The notes beneath the pieces are model-generated. The model was not told the origin of the DNA. It saw only the letters and a list, made by a program, of their open reading frames with translations, and made no database searches. Below, in pieces: positions 33,496 through 36,830 of a stretch of 40,699 bases of DNA. The DNA lies in contig CAMHJC010000009.1 of the NCBI GenBank assembly GCA_946185345.1, positions 1-40,699 on the forward strand. The letters run 5' to 3'. Origin of the DNA: an uncultured Clostridia bacterium (GTDB lineage Bacteria > Bacillota > Clostridia > Oscillospirales > Acutalibacteraceae). Position numbers and translations under genes: made by a program. Every line of letters begins with the position of its first letter. Position 1 is the stretch's first letter.

Positions 33496-34596
33496 ATGGC
33501 AGCAAATAACGCAAAGACAATTTTAAAGGAGCTTGCCGAAAAGGCAAAGGCCAAGGGCAGCATTTCACACAGCGAGATAATGGACGCTCTGGCCGACATT
33601 GACGTCAATCCCGACACCATCGAGAGCTTCTACATCAAACTCGAAAGCATGGAAATTGAGATCATCGAGGACGATGATCAGAGCCTGTCAATCGATTCTC
33701 TTGAAGTAATAGATGACCAGGACGACGACAACCGATCCAATTACTACAATGAAGCCGAGGCTATGGGCATTTATGTAGAGGATCCGGTCAAGGCCTATCT
33801 CCGGGACATCGGCAAGATCGAGCTGCTCAGCAACGAGGAGGAAAAAGAACTTGCGGAAAGAATCATGTCCGGCGACAAGGAAGCCAAGAAACGTCTCAGC
33901 GAAGCCAATCTCCGACTTGTGGTCAGCATCGCCAAGAAATACATGAACCGCGGTCTGCAGTTTCTCGACCTCATTCAGGAAGGCAATCTGGGTCTGATTA
34001 AGGCTGTCGAAAAATTCGACCCGAGCAAGGGCTTTAAATTTTCCACCTACGCCACATGGTGGATTCGTCAGGCGATTACCAGAGCCATTGCAGATCAGGC
34101 CAGAACCATCAGAATTCCGGTGCATATGGTTGAGACGATTAACAAAGTCAAGCGCGCCAAGGCTCAGCTGACAGCCGAAAATGAAAAAGAGCCTCGTCCT
34201 GAGGATATCGCCAAGCTTCTTGATATGGACGTTGAAAAAGTGCGGGAGATCATCCGTGTCTCACAGGAACCCGTTTCTCTGGAAACGCCTATCGGTGAGG
34301 AAGAGGACAGCCATCTCGGCGATTTCATCAAGGACGAGGATCAGGCCGCTCCCGAAGACGCAGTTGGCAATATGATTCTGCACGATCTCATTTCCGAAGT
34401 GCTTGACACGCTCACCGAGAGGGAAGCGGAGGTAATCCGCTTGAGATACGGTCTTGCGGACGGCAGATGCCACACGCTGGAGGAAGTCGGTCAGCAGTTC
34501 GATGTTACCCGAGAGAGAATCAGACAGATTGAAGTCAAGGCCATTCGCAAGCTCAGACACGTTACACGCAGCAGCAAGCTCAAAGGGTTTACATAA
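33496..34596 (+). CDS. rpoD: RNA polymerase primary-type sigma factor, copy 1
   Basis: A 366-residue sigma-70 protein. Region 1.1 (about 5-60) is followed by an acidic linker longer than in copies 2 and 3. Region 1.2 is [16 protein letters not shown] (101-116); region 2 has [20 protein letters not shown] (156-175), [15 protein letters not shown] (182-196) and HMVE (210-213). The finger flank [12 protein letters not shown] is at 271-282. Region 4.2 keeps [10 protein letters not shown] (337-346), so the -35 contacts are intact. Odd points: [21 protein letters not shown] replaces the usual [23 protein letters not shown] end. The ATG at 33496 has AAAGG 12 bases upstream, a loose ribosome site. 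It follows dnaG as rpoD usually does. Confidence 0.95.
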
Positions 34597-34644
34597 TACT
34601 TTTTGAAAAAAACGTTTTGCCAGAAAATGAGGGAGGGAATGAAA

Positions 34645-35703
34645 ATGAATAATTCGGATAAAAAAGAAACGCTCCGCAAGATTGTCGAAACCGGAAAAGC
34701 TAAGGGCAGCCTCAGCAACAGAGAAATCATGGACGCGCTGACAGATGTCAATATCAGCCCCGAACAGCTGGAAAATCTCTACGACAGGCTTGAGGCCAAC
34801 GGCATTGAGATTGTCGAAGATTCACTGGAAGACGTCATAGAAGAGATTTCCGCCGATTCCGGCAGCGATGAAATTCTGGTGGACGATTCGGTCAAAATGT
34901 ACCTGAGAGAGATAGGCAGCATTGAAATGCTTACTCCTGAGGAGGAAAAGGATATCGCCAGACGAATTGCCGAGGGCGATGAGAGCGCCAAAAAGCGTCT
35001 GAGTGACGCCAATCTTCGTCTGGTTGTGAGCATAGCCAAACGATATATGAACCGTGGACTGCATTTTCTTGACCTTATTCAGGAAGGCAACCTCGGACTA
35101 ATCAAAGCGGTTGACAAATTCGATCCTACCAAAGGATTCCGCTTCTCGACTTACGCAACCTGGTGGATCAGACAGTCAATTACCCGTGCCATTGCCGACC
35201 AATCCAGAATCATACGCATACCTGTGCATATGGTGGAAAACATAAATAAAGTCAAGCGAGCCAAAGCGCAGCTTCTGGCCGAAAACGAAAAGGAACCGCG
35301 TCCCGAGGAAATCGCAGAGCTTCTCGACATGGATGAAGCCAGAGTCCGGGAGATTATCCGTATTTCACAGGAGCCGGTTTCTTTAGAGACTCCTATAGGA
35401 GAGGAAGAGGACAGCCATCTCGGCGACTTCATCAAAGACGACGAACAGAAGGCGCCTGAGGACGTTGTGAGCAATATGATGCTTCACGACCTGATTTCTG
35501 AGGTGCTGGAAACGCTGAGTGACCGTGAGGCCGAGGTCATAAGGCTGAGATACGGTCTGGTTGACGGCAGATGCCATACACTGGAAGAAGTCGGACTGCG
35601 CTTTGACGTTACCCGTGAACGCATCAGGCAGATAGAGGCCAAAGCGCTTCGCAAACTCAGGCAGTTCACCCGCAGAAGCAAACTCAACGGATATACATAT
35701 TAA
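34645..35703 (+). CDS. rpoD: RNA polymerase primary-type sigma factor, copy 2
   Basis: 352 residues with region 1.1 (5-62), 1.2 (86-101), 2.1-2.4 (118-200), 3 and 4. Core-binding [15 protein letters not shown] (142-156), WWIRQSIT (173-180) and [10 protein letters not shown] (322-331) are intact. In region 2.4 [12 protein letters not shown] (184-195) has Ser and Ile where copies 1 and 3 have Ala and Thr. The C-terminus is divergent: [18 protein letters not shown]. Its N-terminal half resembles copy 3 and its regions 3-4 resemble copy 1. The ATG at 34645 was chosen because GGGAGGG lies seven bases upstream; upstream in-frame starts overlap that site. It lies 48 bases after copy 1 with no terminator between. 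Confidence 0.95.
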
Positions 35704-35759
35704 TCCTGTGAGATATACCGATATTCTGAATTAAGCAATAAACAGAGGAGGGAATAGCA

Positions 35760-36830
35760 ATGAGCACGACAGACAAAAAAGGGACTCTCCGCCGACTTGT
35801 GGAAAAAGGCAAGGAAAAAGGCAGTCTCAGCAATCAGGAAATACTGGACGCACTTGCCGAAATCAATTTCAGCCCCGAACAGCTGGAAAAACTGTATGAC
35901 AAGCTGGAGGCAAACGGTATTGAAATAGTGGAGGACAGCGTCGAAGATGTCTCTCTGGACGAGCTTACATCAGATAGCGATGACAACTCCTACGAAGGCA
36001 GCTTTATTGACGATCCGGTAAAAATGTATCTCAGAGAAATAGGCACCATAGAAATGCTTACCCCGGAGGAAGAACAGGACATTGCGCGCCGGATATCCGA
36101 GGGAGACGCCAGTGCGAAAAAACGACTGAGTGAAGCCAACCTTCGTCTGGTGGTGAGCATTGCCAAACGATATCTCGGCCGAGGTATGCCTCTTCTTGAC
36201 CTCATTCAGGAGGGAAATCTGGGTCTTATCAAAGCCGTAGACAAGTTTGACCCGAGCAAAGGCTTTAAATTCTCCACCTATGCCACATGGTGGATCCGTC
36301 AGTCGGTATCCAGAGCCATTGCGGATCAGGCCAGGACCATAAGAATTCCGGTACACATGGTCGAGAATATCAACCGGGTCAAAAAGGCGCAAAGTCACCT
36401 GTTGAACGAAAACGGCAAGGATCCGACCACTGCCCAAGTCGCCGAATACGCCGATATGCCCGAGGAAAAAGTGATTGAGATTATGCGTGTTGCGCAGGAT
36501 CTTGTATCACTTGAAGCGCCGGTCGGCGAGGAGGAAGACAGCCACATCGGCGACTTCATTAAGGACGAAACACAGGAAAATCCAGAGGACGCAGCTTCCC
36601 TGAGCATGCTCAAGGAACAGCTGGAAAGCGCATTGTACACCCTGACTCCCCGGGAAATGGCCGTGCTTCGTCTGCGATACGGCCTGGAGGACGGAAGAAA
36701 CCACACGCTCGAAGAAGTCGGCGCCGAATTCAACGTGACGAGAGAACGCATCAGGCAGATCGAAGCCAAGGCTCTGCGCAAACTCAGACATCCGAGCCGA
36801 AGCAAGAAACTGCGTGATTTTCTGCCGTAA
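35760..36830 (+). CDS. rpoD: RNA polymerase primary-type sigma factor, copy 3
   Basis: 356 residues with all sigma-70 regions. Region 1.1 (5-62) and 1.2 (89-104) resemble copy 2. Region 2.2 reads [15 protein letters not shown] (138-152), and region 2.4 has [14 protein letters not shown], with Ser at the place of the -10 contacting Thr440 of E. coli. The finger flank is changed ([16 protein letters not shown]), and the linker [16 protein letters not shown] differs from copies 1 and 2. Region 4 is the most canonical of the three: [16 protein letters not shown], and [16 protein letters not shown] at the end. A strong AGAGGAGGG lies eight bases before the ATG. It is 56 bases after copy 2 with no terminator. 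Confidence 0.95.

Follow-up and report, generated by a model that had tools for sequence, protein, structure and literature searches.

The window, ie the whole 40,699-nucleotide stretch of DNA analysed here, comes from an uncultured Clostridia bacterium whose genus, one of gut bacteria, is known here from genome assemblies. It carries three complete sigma-70 genes in tandem on the + strand, downstream of dnaG, and the middle gene is a hybrid of the two that flank it. Copy 1 (366 aa, 33496..34596), copy 2 (352 aa, 34645..35703) and copy 3 (356 aa, 35760..36830) are all rpoD genes of the primary type. Copy 2 is of the copy 3 type up to approximately residue 125-150 (copy 1 numbering) and of the copy 1 type thereafter. 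The outer copies have diverged in complementary parts, copy 1 at the C-terminus, and copy 3 at region 2.4 and the sigma finger (region 3.2). These departures are specific to a region and to a copy, and are conserved, which fits a divided function; it is from them that we infer a division of labour among the copies. On balance we favour an explanation in which the array grew in two steps and its products form three primary holoenzymes that would differ in initiation kinetics and in the docking of regulators.

All three proteins score above the Pfam cut-offs for region 1.1 (PF03979) and for regions 1.2, 2, 3 and 4 (PF00140, PF04542, PF04539 and PF04545), and above the cut-off of 354 for the NCBIfam model RpoD_Cterm (TIGR02393), with 383.9, 368.9 and 376.2 bits for copies 1, 2 and 3, respectively. 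An initial annotation, made from the sequence alone, had described three complete primary-type genes behind dnaG, and that description holds. The top model is the full-length RpoD equivalog NF006666, at 524.2, 495.0 and 527.3 bits, below its cut-off of 572; these scores may reflect divergence of the lineage. Group 2 sigma factors, the non-essential primary-like class, are recognised by the absence of region 1.1, which is present in all three copies here. The core-binding and main promoter-contact residues are also retained in all three, and Q437, H455, E458 and a 10-residue stretch of region 4.2 are found in every intact copy in the genus. E. coli numbering is used for such positions, being the copy 1 number plus 245 (residue 355 of protein P0003 is aligned to residue 611 of the 613-residue chain). 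Over the whole protein, copies 2 and 3 are 72% and 63% identical to copy 1, and the range among the copies is 63-72%. With copy 1 as the query, the window's own genome gave three matches at E <= 1e-40, all at the array.

The identity between copies is not evenly spread. As a mean over the nine genomes of the genus with an intact copy 2, copies 1 and 2 are 44% identical in region 1.1, compared to 71% for copies 2 and 3 and 46% for copies 1 and 3. In the same order the values are 65, 83 and 66% in regions 1.2-2.1, 89, 82 and 83% in regions 2.1-2.4, 88, 61 and 62% in region 3, and 80, 62 and 62% in region 4. The initial annotation had put copies 1 and 2 at about four-fifths identical over regions 1.2-4, which is correct beyond regions 1.2-2.1 and incorrect within them; its interpretation was right in part, but the hybrid nature of copy 2, to which this unevenness is the key, was missed. 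In the nine-genome consensus, copy 2 follows copy 3 as far as about residue 148 (copy 1 numbering), and copy 1 from about residue 150. A breakpoint scan placed the best split between residues 125 and 150, and the observed score was matched by none of 1000 shuffles in each of the nine genomes, with amino acids and bases alike.

The data fit a single breakpoint: in trees of the two modules (N-part, residues 1-128; C-part, residues 151-365; 16 outgroup rows), the N-part of copy 2 groups with one outer copy and its C-part with the other. In the C-part tree copies 1 and 2 are joined (100/99), and holding copies 2 and 3 together is rejected (p 0.022). In the N-part tree copies 2 and 3 are joined (95/89). 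The position of the hybrid, between its parents and with its 5' part from the downstream gene, is that of a cross-over product: a single unequal cross-over between two tandem pairs would leave copy 1, hybrid (3/1) and copy 3 in just this order. Some results count against this history. The approximately unbiased (AU) test did not reject copies 1 and 2 as one clade in the N-part (p 0.225), so that the N-part test alone is not decisive; copy 2 nests within copy 3 in a quick tree and not in a careful tree of the genus only; and copy 2 is missing from one genome (G004) and not intact in another (G013), both of which lie inside the clade of three-copy species. Dating copy 2 from its nesting in copy 3 was dropped, since the nesting was unstable between trees. 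The hybrid may have arisen at the base of that clade, or earlier with later loss.

Occurrence in the genus was followed with dnaG, which served both as a query in neighbourhood searches and as the species marker. A search of 18 genus genomes with copy 1 gave a match in 17, the exception being G009, which is 78% complete. In those 17, dnaG, copy 1 and copy 3 occur in that order. Copy 2 is intact in nine, the window's genome included, always in the order copy 1, hybrid, copy 3, and seven have two copies only. In G013 the middle open reading frame (ORF; L144, about 3449-4283) is shorter (266 residues from the first Met) and lacks region 4; it is copy 3-like to residue 229 and groups with G013's own copy 3 in the N-part tree (97). 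The dnaG tree places the nine three-copy species, G004 and G013 in one 11-species clade (99 SH-aLRT), with the remaining six two-copy species as its sister (86). G053, of genus g37, also has a tandem pair and is the sister of the genus (100). Six loci of the genus also stood among the top 80 of the 583 loci matched by copy 2; one is labelled uncultured Clostridiales bacterium isolate RUG762, and goat abomasum is named as the source for one of the six.

All copies are under strong selection against change. For copies 1, 2 and 3, respectively, dN/dS has a median of 0.036, 0.022 and 0.040 across 36 pairs of species for each copy, values which are rough because the synonymous distances are large. 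Between paralogs, the proportion of differing synonymous sites is 0.50-0.78. An old and maintained duplication, as proposed at the outset, is thus supported by the presence of copies 1 and 3 in 17 of 18 genomes, by that divergence and by the low dN/dS. An assembly artefact of repeats is ruled out, again in agreement with the initial annotation, by the 63-72% identity of the copies and by recurrence of the array in separately assembled genomes of other species.

Departures from conserved positions were measured against 93 single-copy sequences. Of these, 30 came from the surveyed genomes; copy 2 had 583 matches, and loci among the best 80 supplied the other 63. The latter lean towards copy 2, some may duplicate surveyed genomes, and contig ends may hide a second copy. 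The 144 positions conserved in at least 98% of the 93 were used. The single-copy sequences themselves show a median of 0 departures, with a maximum of 4. Copy 1 has a median of 7, with none in regions 2.3-2.4, none in region 3.2, 2 in region 4.2 and 2 in the C-terminal tail; its regions 2.3-2.4 and finger are canonical and its regions 1.1/1.2 divergent. Copy 2 has a median of 12 (2 in 2.3-2.4, none in 3.2, none in 4.2 and 4 in the tail). Copy 3 also has a median of 12 (range 5-17), with 3 in 2.3-2.4, 3 in 3.2, and none in 4.2 or the tail, both of which are canonical. The copy 3 changes are A438S, I439V and T440S in region 2.4, and P504L, T509A, I511V and L519I in the finger. T440 is T in 93/93 single-copy sequences and S in 16/17 copies 3, with T retained in G008. 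P504 is P in 93/93, and in copy 3 it is L (13/17), I (2/17) or T (1/17). T509 is T in 91/93 and A in 15/17 copies 3. At the other end of the protein, P601 is P in 93/93, V in 17/17 copies 1 and F in 9/9 copies 2.

The history that we propose begins with duplication of the rpoD gene behind dnaG to give copies 1 and 3; this would have happened either in the ancestor of the genus or earlier, before the genus and its sister, g37, parted. The middle gene would then have come from copies 3 and 1 by unequal crossing-over or an equivalent conversion event, taking the N-terminal module of copy 3 (regions 1.1, 1.2 and the start of 2.1) and the C-terminal module of copy 1 (regions 2.2 to 4.2); we infer the exact event and its date. 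The three sigma factors would compete for one RNA polymerase core, and because the main contact residues are kept in all of them, all would probably read similar -10/-35 promoters. Passages of PMC7822876 describe the sigma finger as contacting the template and as a major obstacle to promoter escape, sigma 1.2 and 2.1 as contacting the discriminator, and sigma 1.1 as being ejected for DNA loading; PMC2613000 has Q437 and T440 facing position -12. Copy 3, with a changed -12 reader and a changed finger, would thus be expected to differ in -12 reading, in promoter escape and in its response to rRNA-type control. Copy 1 would combine a canonical finger with changes at both ends, in region 1.1/1.2 (DNA gate and discriminator) and in the C-terminal tail (flap or regulator docking), and copy 2 would join copy 3's gate and discriminator module to the finger and region 4 of copy 1.

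The sample beyond the genus comprised 635 genomes of the order (G018-G652) and 217 of the same phylum outside the order (G653-G869); with the 18 of the genus this makes 870 genomes (G000-G869). No match was obtained in 17, with 13 no-match genomes falling within the two order samples. At the E-value cut-offs used, 351 of the 395 genomes sampled from the order and 202 of the 219 sampled from the phylum had exactly one match, and the lone rpoD lies behind dnaG in the 34 single-copy stretches that were read; a single rpoD is indeed the common state in these samples, as the initial annotation had stated. The survey of dnaG neighbourhoods it called for showed that relatives are not all single at this locus. 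Two matches occurred in 47 of the 635 order genomes outside the genus. In 29 of these, from 19 genera, the two copies are both behind dnaG and no more than 0.9 kb apart, and in the other 18 they are scattered or divided by contig ends. These recurrent pairs had not been foreseen, nor had the seven of 17 species of the genus with only copies 1 and 3. Outside the order, 13 of 217 genomes had more than one match; one has a tandem pair (G819), and 12 have matches elsewhere in the genome. Three of these 12 with three matches (G686, G752 and G799) were rejected as arrays, the extra matches being elsewhere, starting at query residue 66-87 and lacking region 1.1. A second three-gene array was not found among the 870 genomes. 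Tandem rpoD arrays also decay, as in G410 (L189), where an in-frame stop breaks up the first gene of the pair; a similar stop in G086 proved to be the normal end of an open 361-residue frame.

With G410 left out, 28 pairs were available for comparison, and a control by region used one genome from each of the 19 genera. At positions 504, 509, 510 and 511 exactly one partner departs in 10 of the 19 genera, both partners in g254, and 2 of the 93 single-copy sequences. Counted against the share of sites, departures numbered 57 against 40.8 in region 3.2, and 12 against 6.1, ie about 2-fold, at the three finger positions that belong to the 144. The tail showed 34 against 10.2 (3.3-fold), and in 7 of the 19 genera just one of the two partners departs there. 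Regions 4.1 (39 against 26.5) and 3.0-3.1 (39 against 28.6) were also above their share, and regions 2.3-2.4 (34 against 49.0) and 4.2 (32 against 49.0) below it. Finger change was therefore rejected as the dominant trend, the excess being only twofold and that of the tail stronger. The second copy of g117 has SVS at 438-440, as in copy 3. Identity of the C-part minus that of the N-part is at least 15.5 points in 300 pairs of single-copy sequences, and falls to -1.5, -0.1 and 7.2 points in g13, g70 and g74 (L161, L175 and L160), all of the window's family; it is also low in g80, a young pair (4.1), g149 (13.9) and g30 (15.1). This suggests exchange (homogenisation) of N-parts in such pairs too, or fast C-parts.

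A number of these observations weigh against a division of labour based on region 2.4 and the finger. The copy 3 of G003 retains P504, T509 and I511, and T440S and T509A are mild substitutions. Three of the 10 genera with a finger departure (g149, g233 and g194) have I511V only, the two genomes of g125 carry the finger change in different partners, and of the 9 tandem genera in the family of the window's genome, 8 show no finger departure. Departures in diverged partners extend to all regions, and since regions 2.3-2.4 depart less than their share of sites, copy 3 does not follow a general trend in its region 2.4 change. P504L is reportedly an E. coli rpoD allele that mimics ppGpp or suppresses ppGpp0; the literature search gave no match to P504L by name. 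According to a passage of PMC12742793, which cites Hernandez & Cashel 1995, ppGpp0 suppressors seldom map to rpoD. A bolder version, in which shuffling of two modules (one with the gate and discriminator reader, the other with the -10 reader, the finger and the -35/regulator part) provides three distinct primary holoenzymes at once, copy 3 is a built-in 'stringent' sigma whose P504L-type finger hard-wires the effect of ppGpp, and finger or tail change in one tandem partner is a recurrent route in the order, is unlikely; it was downgraded because the finger excess is only twofold.

Other explanations were weighed against the favoured one of distinct initiation kinetics and regulator docking. 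The copies might choose the same promoters and differ mainly in the grip of anti-sigma factors, activators or phage proteins on region 4 or region 1.1. Copies 1 and 2 have an altered tail beside an unaltered recognition helix, and in diverged partners elsewhere no part has departed more than the tail relative to its share of sites, in several genera in one partner only, as given above; the changes in the finger and region 2.4 of copy 3 would be left unexplained, and this proposal is given a modest chance. A second one is given the same chance. Here one copy would be the housekeeping sigma and the others group 2-like factors of stationary phase or stress, comparable to RpoS and to HrdA, HrdC and HrdD of Streptomyces, which are of that kind. 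In 21 of the 28 other tandem pairs one partner has 5 or fewer departures of the 144 positions and the other 7 or more, which is how a housekeeping factor and a specialised partner would look, and in PMC7527412 RpoS is considered to derive from a duplicated rpoD that lost region 1.1. In the present array, however, no copy is fully canonical by the medians given above, and region 1.1 is kept in all three. Simple dosage or redundancy, with interchangeable copies and near-neutral drift under general constraint, is rather improbable: the main promoter-contact and core-binding residues are kept in all copies, two copies suffice in seven of the 17 species, and G004 and G013 do without an intact copy 2 inside the three-copy clade, but the departures fall at sites invariant in single-copy sequences, are complementary by region and nearly fixed within each copy, and the dN/dS medians are 0.02-0.04.

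The array is likely to be a single transcript, given that inspection by eye of the genus alignments revealed no conserved promoter between the copies and that no + strand terminator-like site was found in the gaps of the window. The gaps are 48 bases between copies 1 and 2 and 56 bases between copies 2 and 3, as first annotated; the first is 48 with a better-spaced start. Across the nine three-copy genomes the gaps are 27-245 bases by automatic starts, some of which were placed at a wrong Met, upstream or downstream. One weak + strand promoter-like site (9 of 12) at 34617-34646 ends inside the copy 2 start codon, and promoter-like and terminator-like sites in 33000-38000 were in no excess over shuffles. 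A separate promoter for each copy was therefore rejected. The element GAAAGGTTGA (33478..33487, + strand), upstream of copy 1 and possibly part of its ribosome-binding site, is the same in 17/17 copy 1 leaders aligned from the genus; copies 2 and 3 mostly have GGAGG-type sites. It is perhaps a copy-specific translation signal, and with the short gaps suggesting one transcript, the ratios of the copies could be set by such copy-specific ribosome-binding sites. A duplicated core or 6S RNA to match the sigma factors was not found: the window's own genome has one rpoC and one 6S RNA (rpoB and rpoA were not searched). In the genus, 15 of 18 genomes have exactly one 6S RNA match and 3 have none.

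The upstream anchor gene, dnaG (31622..33397, + strand), scores above the Pfam cut-offs for DNAG_N, the CHC2 zinc finger, Toprim and DnaB_bind. A calcineurin-like phosphoesterase ORF (36843..37715, + strand; PF00149 above cut-off) begins 12 bases past the array and is possibly on the same transcript. Further downstream, an ORF at 37922-39067 encodes Ala/Pro/Gln-rich repeats of the APVQTTAPAQPFAA type and hydrophobic stretches. A 2365-residue ORF occupies 1458-8555 on the - strand. Elsewhere in the genome, contigs C55, C80 and C17 (L004, L005 and L008) encode sigma factors which by eye resemble the sporulation factors SigE, SigG and SigK, and by that resemblance the organism may be endospore-forming.

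Bacteria normally have one primary sigma factor, which is under tight constraint, and this clade has duplicated it in place repeatedly and kept the copies. It has also fused halves of two of them and altered different functional parts in each, and so offers a natural experiment for learning which features of the sigma factor govern initiation kinetics, stringent control and the docking of regulators. If the proposed division of labour is true, one cell runs several variants of the basic gene-reading machine. The single SigA/RpoD behind dnaG in Bacillota has the same place, domain order and main promoter-contact residues, but here there are three copies, none fully canonical. Several RpoD-like factors per cell are already known; what is notable here is that they are in tandem, all of the primary type and module-shuffled. 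Streptomyces (HrdA-D) and the cyanobacteria likewise have several primary-like factors on one core; these are dispersed and the extra ones belong to group 2, in contrast to the full-length tandem copies, one of them a hybrid, described here. Hernandez and Cashel reportedly described, in 1995, region 3 alleles of E. coli rpoD that suppress ppGpp0. Copy 3 is altered at the same finger position (504), but those alleles are mutants replacing the only sigma, whereas copy 3 is a natural paralog beside other copies. RpoS of Proteobacteria, as described in PMC7527412, is likewise a paralog from an rpoD duplication kept beside RpoD, but has lost region 1.1, which the copies of the array keep in tandem at the rpoD place. 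Three rpoD genes are reported for Fimbriimonas in a passage of PMC4072686 that gives no arrangement. A search of open-licence literature, which cannot show absence from print, found no description of a tandem rpoD array, in agreement with the initial annotation, which knew of no such system. There is a formal likeness to the hybrid genes formed by unequal crossing-over in tandem arrays such as those of globin and opsin genes. There too the order is A - (C/A) - C, and the hybrid takes its 5' part from the gene downstream and its 3' part from the gene upstream; in the present case, by contrast, the hybrid is a bacterial primary sigma factor that has been retained in nine species.

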